This document shows, piece after piece, positions 26,227 to 33,842 of a stretch of 33,842 nt of DNA (position 1 is the stretch's first letter; each line of letters begins with the position of its first letter). Under the pieces are notes generated by a model. The model was not told where the DNA came from. It saw nothing but the letters and a program-made list of their open reading frames with translations, and did not search any database. Source of the DNA: Bacillota bacterium (GTDB lineage: Bacteria; Bacillota; Bacilli; Alicyclobacillales; Alicyclobacillaceae); contig JAJZAV010000006.1 in the NCBI GenBank assembly GCA_021799255.1, forward strand, positions 1 through 33,842, in the 5' to 3' direction. A program made the position numbers and the translations under genes.

Positions 26227-27333
26227 CTATTTGCTCCGATAGCGAAGCCCAAATCGAACCGAAGCCACCGACAGCAAAAGCACGATGGAGCATCCCCACC
26301 AATAGACCGTCCGGTTATGCCATAGGGCCGCAAGGGCCTGTATCGGCAACACCCAATAGAGCATCGAGGCCGAAAGCAGAATGGCCGGGATGAGGGTTCC
26401 GAGCCATCGATACATCCCGAATATGTATGCGGCGGCCCCCAGGGTCAGACACCCAATGAGCATGGCCTCGGGCGTGAGATGCCAGGGAGTCATCCAAATC
26501 CCAAGCGCCGGCACCAGCGTGCTCTGAAAGACCATCGCTCCGGTCACGTTGCCGAGGGCCAAACCGTCCTTGTTGCGCCGAATCCACACCACGCTGTTCA
26601 GCGTTTCCGGCAATTCCGTCGTCAGAGGAATCAAGATGGCGGACAAAACGAATGCCGGAATTGTAAACCAGGTCGCCACTTGCTCGACCGCGCTCGTCAA
26701 CAGTTGCGCTCCTCCTACGATACATGCGAGCGCTAAGAAGAGCTGTACGAGTACCAAGGGCACGGCTGGGTTGTCCGCATGGTTCTGAATGTACAAAGGG
26801 TGAAGATGACCGTCGTCGGTGTCCGTTGCCTTCTCACGCAGCGTGACGATGAGGAAAACGCCGTATATCCCGAGCAGCATGAGCGGCACAACGCGGTGGA
26901 CCAACGGACTGGAGATGCACCCCGCCGCGATAGCCACGCCATAGGCGAACAAAAAAAAGCCCATGTCGCGCGAAAACGCCTGGGAACCAACCTTCAGTTG
27001 ATATGTCGAATGAGTCCTGCGAACTAGCAACAGGGAGATTGCCAACACCAAGCTACCCAAGGTCGCGAGTAGAAACGGAGCGCCTAGTATGCCTCCAATC
27101 CCTACCTCGTGGGCACTCGCTTTCCCGTGTCCGAATAGGATTGCGGTTACCGGCACCGCGGTCTCCGGCAAGGCTGTTCCGAGCGCAGCCAAAACGCTGC
27201 CAACGGCACTCTGCCCGAGGCCAAGTTTTCGGCCCAACCACTCGATGGAATTGGTGAATAGTTCGGCGCCGAACAGAATCAAGGCCAGGGCCAGCACCAG
27301 GGTCACCGCCAAGCGCAACTGCGACACCTCCAT
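26227..27333 (-). CDS. CaCA-family Ca2+/cation exchanger membrane protein
   Basis: About 368 residues from ATG 27333; a TTG at 27318 with GGAGG 8 bases upstream is an attractive alternative, and an ATG at 27345 also exists. A polytopic membrane protein with about ten helices in two inverted halves. The alpha-repeat signatures are visible: GSVLAALGTALPETAVPVTAI in the first half and LSAILIPLTTELPETLNSVVW in the second, both with the acidic residue of Na+/Ca2+ exchangers. A cytoplasmic loop is rich in histidine and aspartate (ATDTDDGHLHPLYIQNHADN). The transported ion is not determined by sequence. Confidence 0.87.
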   Translation of the reverse strand: MEVSQLRLAVTLVLALALILFGAELFTNSIEWLGRKLGLGQSAVGSVLAALGTALPETAVPVTAILFGHGKASAHEVGIGGILGAPFLLATLGSLVLAISLLLVRRTHSTYQLKVGSQAFSRDMGFFLFAYGVAIAAGCISSPLVHRVVPLMLLGIYGVFLIVTLREKATDTDDGHLHPLYIQNHADNPAVPLVLVQLFLALACIVGGAQLLTSAVEQVATWFTIPAFVLSAILIPLTTELPETLNSVVWIRRNKDGLALGNVTGAMVFQSTLVPALGIWMTPWHLTPEAMLIGCLTLGAAAYIFGMYRWLGTLIPAILLSASMLYWVLPIQALAALWHNRTVYWWGCSIVLLLSVASVRFGLRYRSK

Positions 27334-27503
27334 AGCGTGAGCCATCCATAAGACTCTACGCCATGAAGTGTGCAGATATGCGGACAAGGATTGCCTTGGT
27401 GTTACTTTCGTGGAAGGGTCGCAGGGCCCAGCACCCATCGACCACTCCCTTGACTGTGCGCCAGTGCGTCGCAGACCCACCGGCTTGGTTCACCAAACGG
27501 GCT

Positions 27504-28220
27504 TTACTTTGCGTCGGACCCTTGGCGAACGGCATCCAACATGCGGGCGGTGACGGAGGCGGCATCCGTCTGTCTGTCCATGAACAGGGCAAGCCACGCG
27601 TCGTCCACCGCCGTGATCATCCAAACTTGACCCTCGTCTCCCACGATGGACGTCTCGTGGATAGAAGCCATCCCCACTTCGCGGCGCAGTTTCTCCACGG
27701 TACGCCGATAGGATCGAAGGACTTCGAGAAACGGTTGATCGTATTCCCTATCGCACGCGCCCACGCTCTCCCCCGAAAACGCAATCCAACCAAGGACCAA
27801 GTCGTCCTCCGTCAGCTGGAGAAAGACGTTTTGCCACTTGTCCTCTGCGAACGCCGGGACTTGGTGCTCAAAGAGCTTGAAGGGATGAAGCGGCCGTTCA
27901 AACACGCTCTTCTGCTTCTGTGGTTCGTCGTGCACCACTTCCACGGTGTGCGCGGTTCCCACGGTTCCTGTCTCCTCGCTGGGCGCGGCGAAATCCAGGG
28001 AAGCTGAAGGTTGCACTGTGTCCTTGCTGTCTGTCTGATCCTTCGCGGACGCCCTTCTGCTTCTCAGCGGCCCGGACGTTTGCGGTTCGGGCGCGTTTGC
28101 CTTGGTCTGCGACGAATCCTTTGGCTTTCGTTCACTTGAATTCGGACGTAGCCAAAGTAGATTCATCCATACGAGCATGGAGAGCAGGACCACAACTACG
28201 ACAACGATGGCCACCACCAA
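27504..28220 (-). CDS. Membrane-anchored protein with roadblock/LC7-like domain
   Basis: 238 residues from a TTG at 28220 with GGTGAT 6 bases upstream. Residues 2-24 form one hydrophobic anchor (VVAIVVVVVVLLSMLVWMNLLWL), followed by a long polar, Ser/Lys/Pro-rich linker (about residues 25-100) and then a C-terminal domain of about 110 residues. That domain has the order of roadblock/LC7 proteins: DDLVLGWIAFSGESVGACD, a helix with LEVLRSYRRTVEKLRREVG, then SIVGDEGQVWMITAVDDAWLALFMDRQT. Roadblock proteins usually regulate small GTPases or act as scaffolds; none is nearby. It closes the five-gene cassette, 30 bases after the HlyD-like gene. The fold is inferred from pattern only. Confidence 0.55.
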   Translation of the reverse strand: MVVAIVVVVVVLLSMLVWMNLLWLRPNSSERKPKDSSQTKANAPEPQTSGPLRSRRASAKDQTDSKDTVQPSASLDFAAPSEETGTVGTAHTVEVVHDEPQKQKSVFERPLHPFKLFEHQVPAFAEDKWQNVFLQLTEDDLVLGWIAFSGESVGACDREYDQPFLEVLRSYRRTVEKLRREVGMASIHETSIVGDEGQVWMITAVDDAWLALFMDRQTDAASVTARMLDAVRQGSDAK

Positions 28221-28250
28221 CTGCTCATCACCCGTCTTCCTGTATCAATC

Positions 28251-28901
28251 TCATGGGTTGTTACGGTGAATCCGAACGCTGGCGTTCATCCCCGGCACCA
28301 CGAGCTTTCCTTCGTTGCCGGAGATGGAAATCCGCACGGGAATCCTCTGAACTTCCTTGGTAAAGTTGCCCGCAGACTGGCTTGACGGGATGAGCGACGA
28401 ATACGAGGCCGCCAATGCCCCGACGTTCTGGACGACACCCGAAAACGTCGTTCCAGGGTAGGCGTCGAGGTAAATATCCACCGTCTGCCCCACGCTCACG
28501 TGGCGAATGTCCGTCTCCGGAACGTACGCGACGATGTACTCCTTTGATAGGTTCGCCAATTCGGCTAGCAGATCACCAGGGGCGACAACCTCACCAGTTA
28601 CGGCGTCCTGCTTCAGTACCTCTCCATTGATGGGGGAAGTGAGGTTCATTGTTTGCCCAGTGGGTGTCGTCTCTACGCCGATGACTTGCCCCTTGCTGAC
28701 GGTATCTCCGTCATGCAGAGTCCAACTCGTGAGCTTGCCCGACGCAAGTGCGACGATTGAGGTCGATTGCACCGATACGCTGGCATCGTTCGTCGATACA
28801 TATTTCGAACGATTTGAAAAGTAAATATAGCCAGCAATCAGAAGGCCGAAGATCACGATGAACCCCAGCACGTTGAGGAGAAACATCTGTCGAACGCGCA
28901 T
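28251..28901 (-). CDS. HlyD/EmrA-like membrane fusion protein, short form
   Basis: About 216 residues from ATG 28901; an ATG at 28922 would add seven. A single anchor near the N-terminus (MFLLNVLGFIVIFGLLIAGYIYF) is followed by an extracytoplasmic biotinyl-lipoyl-like barrel: VSVQSTSIVALASGKLTSWTLHDGDTVSKGQVIGVE, then TSPINGEVLKQDAVTGEVVAPGDLLAELANLS, and a beta-barrel region IVAYVPETDIRHVSVGQTVDIYLDAYPGTTFSGVVQNVG. The coiled-coil hairpin between the lipoyl halves is missing, so it is shorter than classic HlyD. It lies 93 bases after the ABC permease, suggesting that it works with that transporter. Confidence 0.82.
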   Translation of the reverse strand: MRVRQMFLLNVLGFIVIFGLLIAGYIYFSNRSKYVSTNDASVSVQSTSIVALASGKLTSWTLHDGDTVSKGQVIGVETTPTGQTMNLTSPINGEVLKQDAVTGEVVAPGDLLAELANLSKEYIVAYVPETDIRHVSVGQTVDIYLDAYPGTTFSGVVQNVGALAASYSSLIPSSQSAGNFTKEVQRIPVRISISGNEGKLVVPGMNASVRIHRNNP

Positions 28902-28994
28902 CAACCTCAACCCTTCATCCATAGAATTCAATCGCCACCGATTTTACCGTGCAAAGCAGGAAAAGGAAAGTCGGCGCGAACCAATGATGGGTTT

Positions 28995-29846
28995 TCAGAG
29001 CCGGGACGAATCCCTTTCTTTGGGCTGCAGAGGACGACGAGAACGCTTCGTCCATCCGCGGGGACGCAGCCTGTATAGGGCCGGGATTAAAAGTACCGCG
29101 CACACCAGCAGATAGAACCCCACAAACACCACCCAGGATCCAGGGCTTCCGGTTTCCGCGTTCTCGAGGCTCGCCTCAATCCACAGGGGATTCAAATTCA
29201 GCAATTGGTCGCCCCATCCTGCCGCAAATGCGTCAATCGCGTTGTGCAAGGCGAGCAGCCGCAGTCCGTACCCGACCACCCCTGACACGATGAGCATGAA
29301 CGAGACCATTCCGTACGACAACACGGTGCTCCAAGCCGACTGAAGGGCGATGCTGGAAAACATCACGCTGATGGAAGCAATCACGAAAATGGAGAACAAT
29401 TGGAACGCAAAAACGGACAAGACCTCTTGAGGTACTGCGCCGCCAAAGAGAAATACCAAACTGTACAGGGGCAACGTGACGACGAGCAACAGGACGACGA
29501 GGGCCGACGACGACAGGATCTTCCCCACAATAACCCCAAGGGGAGTCAGGGGCGTGGTCATCAACACTGGAAGCGTGCGCCGCTCCCGCTCCCCGCTTAC
29601 GCTGCCCGCGGCAAAGGCCGGCGTGAGGAACGCGGCGATGGCCATTTGTAACCAACTCAGCGCCACGAAGATCTGCTCGCTACGCACCGTCAGAGAAATA
29701 ATGGTCTGACCCTGCAGGCTTTCGTATAGGAGGCCGAAGGTGAGCGCCACCATAAAGAGAAGATAGCCAGTGATGACAAACGGCGCGCGCTTGGTGCGCA
29801 TTCTCTGGCGGAATTCCTTTTGCAAAAGCGGGTTCGTGAGTATCAT
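28995..29846 (-). CDS. ABC-2 type transporter permease
   Basis: 283 residues with about six membrane helices (for example VITGYLLFMVALTFGLLY and SALVVLLLVVTLPLYSLVFLF). The cytoplasmic loop has the ABC-2 signature GSVSGERERRTLPVLMTTPLTPLGVIVGKIL, typical of GldF/NosY-like permeases. Its start overlaps the ATPase stop by four bases (ATGA), so the two subunits are translationally coupled. The C-terminus is basic (RPRGWTKRSRRPLQPKERD). The substrate cannot be read from sequence. Confidence 0.9.
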   Translation of the reverse strand: MILTNPLLQKEFRQRMRTKRAPFVITGYLLFMVALTFGLLYESLQGQTIISLTVRSEQIFVALSWLQMAIAAFLTPAFAAGSVSGERERRTLPVLMTTPLTPLGVIVGKILSSSALVVLLLVVTLPLYSLVFLFGGAVPQEVLSVFAFQLFSIFVIASISVMFSSIALQSAWSTVLSYGMVSFMLIVSGVVGYGLRLLALHNAIDAFAAGWGDQLLNLNPLWIEASLENAETGSPGSWVVFVGFYLLVCAVLLIPALYRLRPRGWTKRSRRPLQPKERDSSRL

Positions 29847-30772
29847 GACCGCACCGTCCGTTCCGTCAGCCGCAAAAACAGCGCCTCGATGTCGGTGGGC
29901 CGCTCGGCGAATTGGTACAACGTGATGCCTTGCGCGATGATGCGCTCCATCAATTCTGCCTGCTGGTGAAGCGTTCCCGCATAGACCACTTCAACGCCAT
30001 CCGCTCTCGGAGAGAATTCAAGAATATGCGGATCCGACTGCAGCACGGCGGTCCATTTCGACCACTCGGCTTGCCCCGCAAGCCATAGCGTTCGGTGTGC
30101 GCTCGTATGGGACATCATCACATTGATGGCCGCCACTGCGGCGACTTCTCCGCCTCGTATGATCCCGATTTCATCCGCCACCTCGGCGAGCTCTTGGAGG
30201 ATATGCGAACTGATGACGACCGTCTTCCCGGATGCACGCAACCGGGAAAGAACGGATCGCATCTCTATTCGAGATCTCGGATCCAATCCGGACGACGGCT
30301 CGTCCAAGATCAGAACCGCCGGGTCGTGCATAAGGCAACGCGCAATCTCGAGGCGCTGCTGCATCCCGCGCGAAAGGGAATTGACGTAGAAACGGCGCTT
30401 GTCGACGAGGTCTACCGATTCCAGCAGTTCATCGGCTCGCGTGCGCCACACGCGCTTTTGCACCCCGTAGCATTCGGCATAGAACTGCAGGTATTCATAA
30501 GCCGTCAACTCGTCGTACACGCCAAATGCGTCCGGCATGTAGCCGATGGACCTGCGCACTTTCTTGGCCTCGCGTCTCAGCTCGAATCCGTTCACAAGCG
30601 CCTTCCCGGAACTTGGCGTCACCAATGTGGCGAGCATCGAGAGCGTTGTCGTCTTGCCCGCCCCGTTTTCGCCTACGATGCCGAAAATCGTGCCGGATCG
30701 AATGTTCAGGTTCAGGTTGTTCACGGCGTTGACCTTGCCATAGCGCTTGCATAGATTCTGCGTGATAATCAA
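29843..30772 (-). CDS. ABC transporter ATP-binding protein
   Basis: 309 residues. Walker A GENGAGKTTT at residues 34-43, Q-loop region GYMPDAFGVYDELTAYEYL, signature LSRGMQQRLEIARCL, Walker B VLILDEPSSGLDP, and the H-loop in VVISSHILQEL. A C-terminal extension of about 90 residues follows, usual for ABC-2 export ATPases (GldA/CcmA/NatA type). The signature is LSRGM rather than LSGGQ, common in this group. It lies 7 bases after the large exported protein gene and overlaps the permease by four bases. Confidence 0.95.
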   Translation of the reverse strand: MIITQNLCKRYGKVNAVNNLNLNIRSGTIFGIVGENGAGKTTTLSMLATLVTPSSGKALVNGFELRREAKKVRRSIGYMPDAFGVYDELTAYEYLQFYAECYGVQKRVWRTRADELLESVDLVDKRRFYVNSLSRGMQQRLEIARCLMHDPAVLILDEPSSGLDPRSRIEMRSVLSRLRASGKTVVISSHILQELAEVADEIGIIRGGEVAAVAAINVMMSHTSAHRTLWLAGQAEWSKWTAVLQSDPHILEFSPRADGVEVVYAGTLHQQAELMERIIAQGITLYQFAERPTDIEALFLRLTERTVRS

Positions 30773-30779
30773 GAGATTC

Positions 30780-32771
30780 TCACCCCAACGGATAATCGGC
30801 TACGTTGACGATTTGGCGAACGAGCGTCAACGTCGTTGACGAAGCGGTCTTGCCATTATGCGCGGTAAGCCGTGGCAGCGTCGGTGGGCGCTCGGTCGTG
30901 GTCGCAACGATGAGTGCCTGGTTTTGATTCAGGGTCAAATTGATGAGAGGGGCGCTATATTCCCCAAGCCGCCGGCCAACCCCGTGAAGGATATCGTGGT
31001 TGTACGCGCTGTACGCCAAAAGCCAACTCGGAGTGCTCACAAAGGGCGCCGACTCGGGCTCCTTCAGCATCACCCGTCGTCCTGGAGCCATGTCGCCGAT
31101 GGGGAACATCTTGTCGTTCCAAAACACCGCGACGTCGTGCAGCGTGTACGGGGTTCGGTTCTGAATCGTGCCCGTAAAATAGTACGTCGAATCAAGCGTG
31201 GTGTTGAACTCTCCCTGACCGGTGATGGAACCCGCGGAATACAGATAGCGCATCCCCCATCTCCCAACCGCGTCAAACGACGCGAAAGAACTCTTGTGCA
31301 TCTGCGTGATGGTCGCCGTGCCGATACGCCGAATGCCTTCTTGCGCCAGGGGCAAGAGGAGCGTTGGCTGAGACGTATGCGCCGTCACGTCCACGGTATG
31401 CGGGGACATGAAGGCGGAGATCCCGTACGACTCCGCCTGCGAGTTCCCGACGAGATCCACCACGGCGACCCCCTCCGTGAGCATTCCTTCGGGGCGTTTC
31501 GTCTCTCCGAACGAATAGATGGAAACCGTGGTTACCACGCTAAGCAAAGGCAATACCCCCCATGCGAGCGACTGTTTCCGAAGTCGCTTCAACACGAAGA
31601 ACGCCAGAGGTCCCACCAAAAAGATGTACGCGCTGAAAATCATCCCCCAGTAACGCAGGGACGGCACCCGCAACGGCGACAGGGAGTCGCTCGCGCGACT
31701 CAGCGTGAGAATGCCGTTCGGATCCAGCAGATTCTGCACCGCGTTGAGGCTGGTGTTGTCCATCTGCTTGAGCAAGGTGGACCATAAAGACACGTCGCCC
31801 GGCCACTGAAGCAGAACGGATTGGGTCGGAAAAAACGACGTCTGGACAACCGCTCCCCGCCCCACCGTCATGGAGGCAATGAGCGGCAGGGTTTTCGATC
31901 CCGCTATAATCCGCGCCCCCTGGCGAATCCCTTCCCCTTCCATGAGCAGCGTCCGGTGAAGCGGGGTCTTTGGAACCAGGTTCGCGAACAAGCTGCCGGA
32001 TACCCAATGATCGGGGCCGGCGACGATGGGGAGCGCAGGGGTTGTACCGCCCCATTTAACCCCCGTTACAAACAGCATCCCACCCATTCGAACCCACGTC
32101 CAGAGCGCTTCCTGCTGGTCCTTTTTCAGGCCGAACAGGGTGGTCGGAGTGGTAACGACGGCGGTTAACGTGTCAAGGAGGTTGGGCCTGTCCGGAAAAT
32201 CGGCAGGATATAGGGCGAACGGCAAGACGGGATTGTTGGCAGGCGAAGGCCCCGTGGTTCCCGTCAAGAATTGAGCGTTTATGGCTTGCGTTGACAAAAC
32301 GGCCACCAGGTCGTTGTTGTCAATCCGAGTCGCATTCAGATAGGTCTTAGCAATGATGCGGCCATTGCTAACGCAGTCCACCTCGGGACTCGTCAGCTTG
32401 GACAGGATGTTTCCTGGCACCGCGATGACCTTTTTGCTCCAACCTGTAGGAATGTGAAGGGGCCACTCGACTCGTCCGTTTTGCGACGGCCCAGAGGGGG
32501 TAAACCCGTTGACGGAGAGCACGAGGCGAGCGGACACGGGTTTACCCACGTTGTCGATGGAGATGTTCACCGGAATCCAATGATTCTCGTTAAAATAACC
32601 GGCGTATCCGACCGCTGCAGTCATGGTTACTGGATGAGTAGGGGTAGCCGCCTCAGCGCTCGACTCAGGCATTGCCACCGTCGCAACCATCGCTAAGGTG
32701 GCAATCACACTGGCCGTATAGATACTTCGCACAGGCTGAAAAGAACCCCGCTTGAGAGGCCGAAATGTCAT
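30780..32771 (-). CDS. Large extracytoplasmic membrane protein, GldG-like partner of the ABC transporter
   Basis: 663 residues. A signal peptide is likely at residues 17-42 (SIYTASVIATLAMVATVAM..AEAA). Residues 45-370 look extracytoplasmic: a beta-rich part, then FPDRPNLLDTLTAVVTTPTTLFGLKKDQQEALWTWVRMGG MLFVTG (residues 192-236), the pattern of the amidotransferase-like domain in GldG/DUF4350-type ABC partners. Two helices follow (about 375-394 and 402-420), joined by a basic loop, and residues 421-663 return outside and look beta-rich. GAGAGGAA precedes ATG 32771 by 11 bases. It ends 7 bases before the ATPase, so it is very likely a subunit of that transporter. No enzymatic residues are obvious. 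Confidence 0.65.
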   Translation of the reverse strand: MTFRPLKRGSFQPVRSIYTASVIATLAMVATVAMPESSAEAATPTHPVTMTAAVGYAGYFNENHWIPVNISIDNVGKPVSARLVLSVNGFTPSGPSQNGRVEWPLHIPTGWSKKVIAVPGNILSKLTSPEVDCVSNGRIIAKTYLNATRIDNNDLVAVLSTQAINAQFLTGTTGPSPANNPVLPFALYPADFPDRPNLLDTLTAVVTTPTTLFGLKKDQQEALWTWVRMGGMLFVTGVKWGGTTPALPIVAGPDHWVSGSLFANLVPKTPLHRTLLMEGEGIRQGARIIAGSKTLPLIASMTVGRGAVVQTSFFPTQSVLLQWPGDVSLWSTLLKQMDNTSLNAVQNLLDPNGILTLSRASDSLSPLRVPSLRYWGMIFSAYIFLVGPLAFFVLKRLRKQSLAWGVLPLLSVVTTVSIYSFGETKRPEGMLTEGVAVVDLVGNSQAESYGISAFMSPHTVDVTAHTSQPTLLLPLAQEGIRRIGTATITQMHKSSFASFDAVGRWGMRYLYSAGSITGQGEFNTTLDSTYYFTGTIQNRTPYTLHDVAVFWNDKMFPIGDMAPGRRVMLKEPESAPFVSTPSWLLAYSAYNHDILHGVGRRLGEYSAPLINLTLNQNQALIVATTTERPPTLPRLTAHNGKTASSTTLTLVRQIVNVADYPLG

Positions 32772-32842: not shown

Positions 32843-33842
32843 TTATAGCATTTCGACTAGACGCGCGTTTCGTGGTCGAACTGTTTGCTCAGGTCCTGGA
32901 ATCTTTGTGGTTCTACTTCGATGCAAAGGAGATTCTCGAACTTGCTGTGGGTGCTTAGCGAGCCAAACCGCGAACTGAGCCTGGGTCTTCGCCAACGTTG
33001 CCCGCATTTCGGCAGTCATGAGACTGCGTGCCGGTTTAGGATTCATCTCAATGACCCAGACTTTCCCGTCTTTGTCGACGCCGAGATCGAACCCGGCGAG
33101 CCCCACGTGGGAATTTCGCTGGCTGAGGAGCGTAGCGACATTGATGGCGCACTCAGAGAGTTCCCGCACCGGAAGCCGTTTCCCCTCGCGTCGGGCCATG
33201 AGAATCGCTCGCTCAAGCGAAAGCCGCTCTCCTCCCGCAATCAAGTTGGTCACGACCCCGTCGGCAGCCGCCTGCTTGGGCACGATGCCGATGAGTTGCC
33301 ACTTGCCTTCGCCATCCCGATGCACGACAACACGAAAGTCGAGCCTGCGGCCGCCCACCGTCATCAAATCGATACCCTTTTGCACCAGGTGCAGAGGCTG
33401 TTTGCGCCTCGCCAACCTGCGAAGTAGTTCAGCGTTAGAAATGACCTCGCGGATCCCCTTGACTTTGCCGTTGATCCTATCGATGGACATTCTAAAATTG
33501 CCATCTCTCAGATACTCGACTCGAGTGACCCCGTTGCCGCCGTAGCCGCCACTCGGCTTTACATAGGCCACTTTCCACTCTTGAATCAAGGAGGCGGCAC
33601 GTCGGACATCGGTCAGCTGCTCCGTCGGCGGCAGGTAATCCTTGTGAATACTTGGCTTGAGCAGACGAACCATCTGCCACTTGCCCGGCATTATGGGATT
33701 GAAAAGTGGAAGGTTGTTCTGTCTGGCCATCCTCCGCAGTTCTTCGGAATACCCGCTCACGGACAAGTGGACGTACACATTCTCATAGAATACATTAGGT
33801 AGCGGGACGATTCTCTTCGTCCAATTGCCAAACGGATCGTTC
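32843..33842 (-). CDS. YheC/YheD family ATP-grasp, spore-coat-associated protein (5' end outside window)
   Basis: The frame remains open to the right edge (visible end ...LPNVFYENVYVHLSVSGYSEEL), so the start is outside; YheC/D proteins are longer, usually with a D/NVxYxx motif here. ATP-grasp features: WKVAYVKPSGGYGGNGVTRV, RRKQPLHLVQKGIDL, RRLDFRVVVHRDGEGKWQLIGIVPKQA, and GLAGFDLGVDKDGKVWVIEMNPKPARS, with the Mg-binding N-P at the end. Family members are produced in sporulation and found with the coat; the reaction is not established. The exported membrane-protein gene starts 71 bases downstream of its stop. Confidence 0.9.
   Translation of the reverse strand, partial: NDPFGNWTKRIVPLPNVFYENVYVHLSVSGYSEELRRMARQNNLPLFNPIMPGKWQMVRLLKPSIHKDYLPPTEQLTDVRRAASLIQEWKVAYVKPSGGYGGNGVTRVEYLRDGNFRMSIDRINGKVKGIREVISNAELLRRLARRKQPLHLVQKGIDLMTVGGRRLDFRVVVHRDGEGKWQLIGIVPKQAAADGVVTNLIAGGERLSLERAILMARREGKRLPVRELSECAINVATLLSQRNSHVGLAGFDLGVDKDGKVWVIEMNPKPARSLMTAEMRATLAKTQAQFAVWLAKHPQQVRESPLHRSRTTKIPGPEQTVRPRNARLVEML

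Follow-up and report, generated by a model that had tools for sequence, protein, structure and literature searches.

In the Alicyclobacillaceae, the genes of a putative ABC-2 exporter and its auxiliary membrane protein (genes 1 to 3) form a conserved core, behind which many genera carry a gene (gene 5) whose product is identified by sequence, through its orthologues, as a membrane-tethered roadblock protein. In the window, that is, the whole analysed stretch of 33,842 nucleotides, a short HlyD-like gene (gene 4) stands between the two; the five genes do not always occur together. Roadblock proteins are GTPase regulators and occur as parts of dynein and Ragulator. They are hardly known in Bacillota, and the tethered form behind an exporter suggests a service to transporters.

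The initial annotation described five genes in close succession on one strand, and their order and spacing are borne out by the open reading frame coordinates, all on the minus strand (Table 1): genes 1 and 2 are 7 bases apart, genes 2 and 3 overlap by 4, and gaps of 93 and 30 bases precede genes 4 and 5, the former counted from the ATG at 28901, a start backed by the MRARQ start of the gene-4 orthologues. Its statement that no terminator is visible between the genes also stands, as a terminator scan placed no terminator-like site in any gap of the cassette (9 sites in the region in total, compared with a shuffle expectation of 8.5). The ABC_tran, ABC2_membrane_2 and HlyD domains were confirmed by Pfam in genes 2, 3 and 4, respectively; the gene-1 and gene-5 proteins, searched as single sequences, have no Pfam match over the cut-off. 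The conserved neighbourhood is wider than first noted, with a YheC/D-type gene often upstream and an exchanger-type gene directly downstream.

Table 1. Features of the cassette and its flanks in the window
Feature	Coordinates	Strand	Description	Evidence or remark
YheC/D-type ATP-grasp gene, upstream of gene 1	32843..33778	-		ATPgrasp_YheCD E 1.8e-52
Gene 1	30780..32771	-	663 aa	ORF calls
Gene 2	29843..30772	-	ABC ATPase, DrrA/GldA-like	ABC_tran 2e-32
Gene 3	28995..29846	-	ABC-2 permease (PF12679), 6 predicted TM	Pfam, hydropathy
Gene 4	28251..28901	-	Short hairpin-less EmrA-like HlyD, one TM, 216 aa	HlyD_D23 8.6e-18
Gene 5	27504..28220	-	N-terminal TM helix, low-complexity linker, C-terminal roadblock domain (predicted)	TTG start, 238 aa
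Gene-5 roadblock domain (predicted)	27522-27869	-	About residues 118-235	
Na/Ca-exchanger-family gene, downstream of gene 5	26227..27480	-		Na_Ca_ex 1.3e-27

The window's gene-5 protein alone does not match Robl_LC7 (PF03259). Of the 42 order genomes searched with this model, three contain a match over its cut-off. These three belong to the sister family, and in each the match is a protein with a transmembrane (TM) helix and linker encoded between the permease and hemL. At E ≤ 0.1, 9 of the 16 sister-family domains match Robl_LC7, the best with 6.9e-6 (26.1 bits vs a cut-off of 23), and the family gene-5 profile, built from 22 sequences with none from the sister family, aligns to the sister-family domain profile with 97.6% probability (E = 4e-12). 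When compared with a reference alignment of seven known roadblock sequences, six from PDB alignments and one from locus L155 described below, the combined profile reaches an E-value of 1.9e-5 and the sister-family profile 2.7e-5, vs 0.15 and 0.62 for control profiles of genes 4 and 1. The roadblock identification rests on the sister-family intermediates, because the family-only profile falls short of significance in the same comparison (0.046). On these grounds the earlier proposal that a roadblock domain is joined to a membrane anchor holds up. A search of the PDB with the sister-family profile ranked dynein roadblock chains first, at E-values (0.03-0.17) that are suggestive only, and with the family gene-5 profile it returned low-complexity linker matches only. 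The single-sequence AlphaFold model of gene 5 is of low confidence (mean pLDDT 46), with strands and helices in the order expected for a roadblock domain (alpha-beta-beta-alpha-beta-beta-beta-alpha).

Hydropathy analysis places a helix in the gene-5 members, in nearly all of them with little or no charge before it and 3-8 basic residues after it, and in members seemingly without the helix it was recovered with the full open reading frame; by the positive-inside rule, the roadblock domain is predicted to be cytosolic. Robl_LC7 is matched over the cut-off in just 1 of 299 genomes drawn across Bacillota, and the gene-5 profile finds matches in 16 of 300 genomes of the class, all within the order.

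The conservation of the cassette was examined in 41 family genomes from 16 genera, namely the window's assembly and 40 further genomes in 15 other genera, by searching the regions around gene 1 in all 40 relatives with the window's proteins. Gene 1 is present as one copy in every family genome and was detected in 58 of the 59 genomes searched across the order, and genes 1, 2 and 3 are adjacent and co-directional in 41/41 family genomes. An exchanger-family gene follows the cassette in every family locus that is long enough, usually with a convergent hemL beyond it. What varies is the interval between permease and exchanger, which holds genes 4 and 5 in 14 genomes (7 genera, the window included), gene 5 alone in 9 and neither gene in 18, the last being all 15 genomes of one genus (g2), the single genome of another (g9) and two of the three of a third (g5). 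No family genome was seen to have gene 4 but lack gene 5. In the sister family genes 1, 2, 3 and 5 follow one another and a convergent hemL comes next, often with a YheCD gene upstream of the run; gene 4 and the exchanger were not seen at this locus. In one genome the cassette is split over two contigs (L110/L122), and in another the contig ends within gene 5 (L121). Since the sister family keeps gene 5 in place without the exchanger, it is the exporter that is the constant neighbour of gene 5, which was found behind it in about 20 genera. These linkages argue for a cassette rather than a chance neighbourhood, as first supposed, with genes 1-2-3 linked throughout the family and at the sister-family loci. 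The conserved co-occurrence of all five families, which the initial annotation had suggested searching for, is only partly seen: the triple is found everywhere in the family, while gene 5 (23/41 genomes) and gene 4 (7/16 genera) are not universal. The YheC/D-type ATP-grasp gene recurs upstream of gene 1, in the window as well as in sister-family loci L105-L120, and is a frequent neighbour in both families rather than an established component.

A quick tree was built from the concatenated genes 1-3 (58 rows); some of its deeper forks have weak support, and the window's row sits on a long branch. Parsimony on this tree gives three changes each for gene 5 and gene 4. Because gene 5 is present in the sister family, its changes are most readily taken as losses, so that gene 5 was probably lost about three times while the exporter stayed.

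Genes 2 and 3 have the makeup of an ABC-2 exporter, with ATPase and permease genes adjacent. Gene 2 matches TIGR01188 with an E-value of 1e-73, under that model's cut-off, and gene 3 weakly matches the GldF model (1.4e-7). The gene-1 protein is predicted to have an N-terminal helix, a beta-rich and alpha/beta ectodomain, one or two TM helices near residues 376-422 (from hydropathy) and a C-terminal beta-rich region, a layout of an exported or membrane-anchored protein of the DUF7408/DUF4350 type. At E ≤ 1, DUF4350 is matched by 13 of 33 gene-1 family members and DUF7408 by 5 of 33 (best 1.2e-5), and a homologue from elsewhere in the class (L123) exceeds the DUF7408 cut-off with 47.5 bits; membership is thus reached through relatives and not by the window's protein. 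The structure model of gene 1, predicted together with one relative, is poor (mean pLDDT 34). The 'GldG-like' label of the initial annotation survives at most at the level of architecture or fold. By sequence, membership of the GldG family is ruled out, with no match to PF09822 (ABC_transp_aux) at E ≤ 1 among the 33 gene-1 members or in the window's genome, and a 10% probability over 71 columns when gene 1 was compared with real PF09822 proteins by hhalign; the GldG model TIGR03521 does not match gene 1 either.

Homologues of gene 1 were found in 91 of 250 genomes of the class. Twenty class loci outside the order (L123-L142), chosen among the high-scoring matches and not at random, all carry genes 1, 2 and 3 together, and in 14 of them genes for a membrane protein with coiled coils and for MoxR come next; wherever the contig continues, DUF58 and BatA-vWA genes lie beyond. 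This MoxR/DUF58/vWA module is absent beside the triple from all order loci examined; the window's genome has MoxR and DUF58 genes elsewhere, away from the triple. A literature search for the triple and the coiled-coil/MoxR/DUF58/BatA-vWA cluster with an ABC exporter found no description.

Gene 4 exceeds the cut-offs of HlyD_D23 and HlyD_3 (barrel-sandwich and beta-barrel domains) and matches EmrA structures at 1.9e-22 to 1.9e-23. The EmrA model aligns to it in two stretches, the second beginning at residue 95, which corresponds to model position 205, and about 110 model positions, including the alpha-helical hairpin, have no counterpart. All operon copies are 213-233 aa long. Against the profile built from them they reach 356-391 bits, and no other protein in these genomes exceeds 232. 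They form a single clade with 100/100 support; gene 4 was thus recruited a single time, later than the triple.

The missing hairpin, to which the initial annotation had drawn attention, is thus real, and the special meaning given to it is rejected, as short hairpin-less HlyDs occur elsewhere in all 41 family genomes. Among 20 such proteins outside the operon, 14 belong to a group that lies mostly beside multi-TM transporters (3/3 tested were MFS). The other six (L182, L189, L190, L191, L192 and L199; about 235-243 aa) are not beside an MFS gene and form a second clade, which groups in the tree with the operon HlyDs and not with the MFS-linked ones; an O-antigen ligase-like (Wzy_C) gene lies near the one at L191.

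Relatives of the gene-5 domain are also found beside other exporters. Soluble paralogues occur in five genomes (L176:7899-8990, L177:7711-8757, L178:7263-8249, L179:7563-8405 and L180:3433-4476). In four of these the gene immediately upstream encodes an 11-12-TM transporter, which is MFS in the three tested (L176, L177 and L178), and in the fifth (L180) it is a membrane-protein gene that is cut off. The sole Robl_LC7 match over the cut-off among the 299 Bacillota genomes, in genome G441 from outside the order's class, is a protein with predicted N-terminal TM helices (L155:1405-3240, on G441:C61) whose gene follows that of a MATE exporter with a 15-base gap. This recurrent pairing, in a small sample, is the strongest hint that the domain serves transporters. 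No link of a roadblock domain with a transporter, or with an ABC transporter and permease in particular, was found in the literature searched, in line with the earlier remark that no described system of such composition is known.

The model that we infer from these observations covers complex formation, regulation, partners and substrate. Genes 1-3 would encode an ABC-2 exporter together with an extracellular auxiliary subunit of its own. This machine is found Bacilli-wide and outside the order is usually followed by the MoxR AAA+/DUF58/BatA-vWA helper module, whose place gene 5 takes in this order. The single membrane helix and long flexible linker would keep the roadblock domain in the cytosol beside the ATPase, where a roadblock dimer may set when or where the exporter works by recruiting or regulating an NTPase, which could be the ABC ATPase itself or a soluble partner. 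The gene-4 adaptor, in the genera that have it, might stabilise the exporter on its outer face or guide the substrate, most likely a cell-envelope component, into the wall. For this module as a whole, that is, a tethered roadblock regulating an ABC-2 exporter with an optional adaptor and an envelope substrate, we see about an even chance of being correct; the dispensability of gene 5, with the exporter staying on after its losses, speaks against it, as do the family-only gene-5 profile that falls short of significance, the low confidence of both structure models and the lack of a linked NTPase partner besides gene 2. If correct, the model would hint at an undescribed way of exporter control, the new element being an exporter variant with a roadblock protein in the helper's place, and the lineages with and without each helper make this uncharacterised Bacilli-wide exporter testable by comparison. 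A bolder version, which we regard as doubtful, holds that roadblock domains in Bacillota regulate transporters directly and without a Ras-like GTPase, through a tethered dimer on the ABC ATPase here and through relatives on MFS and MATE exporters, having taken over the role of the MoxR/DUF58/vWA module.

Other explanations place the partner of gene 5 elsewhere or deny the coupling. Roadblock proteins classically regulate GTPases, and gene 5 could be an orphan MglB-like regulator whose Ras-like GTPase is encoded at another site, with the exporter merely serving as its membrane landing site. Many prokaryotic MglB homologues do indeed lie away from MglA (328 of 749 are not encoded next to it; PMC4316618). 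However, the family, sister-family and paralogue loci examined show no small GTPase gene next to gene 5 or to its paralogues; exporters adjoin instead, and no NTPase gene other than gene 2 is linked to the cassette. Coupling to a classic MglA-type GTPase is unsupported because no GTPase gene is adjacent, and we consider an orphan regulator unlikely.

The neighbourhood might also exist without functional coupling, genes 4 and 5 being passengers among housekeeping genes (hemL, exchanger, ATP-grasp), as would fit their dispensability and the conservation of the flanking hemL. This is distinctly unlikely, given that gene 5 keeps its permease neighbour across two families, in one of which the exchanger is absent, that roadblock genes recur behind other exporters and that the spacing is tight and co-directional. 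A different profilin-like or longin-like fold for the gene-5 domain, with a structural role as a scaffold in exporter assembly, is in our view very unlikely: the lack of a Robl_LC7 match in the window's protein and the weak family-only profile would agree with such a fold, but sister-family orthologues at the same locus do match Robl_LC7, the best over the cut-off, and the combined profile scores 1.9e-5, with the controls at 0.15 and 0.62. The tethered roadblock at the exporter remains our preferred reading.

The cassette can be compared with several known systems. The archaeal combination of DUF4350, MoxR and vWA proteins (arCOG01314) has been proposed, with a remote resemblance to GldG, as a secretion or membrane-remodelling system (PMC5898192), and it shares with the cassette a membrane-anchored extracellular DUF4350-like subunit. 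MoxR/DUF58/vWA genes also follow the cassette's exporter in other Bacilli; unlike the cassette, the archaeal version is presented without an ABC transporter in the account of it considered here (PMC5898192), and the order's locus has a roadblock gene where the MoxR/vWA module is absent. With GldA-GldF-GldG of Bacteroidota gliding the cassette has in common an ATPase, an ABC-2 permease and an auxiliary membrane subunit with an alpha/beta ectodomain, from which gene 1 differs by its lack of a PF09822/GldG match and its extra C-terminal region. The C-terminal domain of gene 5 resembles the Roadblock/LC7 proteins MglB, CvnB and dynein LC7 by profile, through the sister-family orthologues, and gene 5 departs from them in its predicted TM anchor and long linker, the lack of an adjacent GTPase gene and its setting in an exporter operon. 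YhbJ represents the short HlyD adaptors of Gram-positive bacteria. Gene 4 shares its domains with such EmrA/YhbJ-type short HlyDs, likewise without the hairpin, and while its paralogues in the family lie mostly beside MFS-type exporters, the operon copies form a clade of their own that is linked to an ABC-2 exporter.
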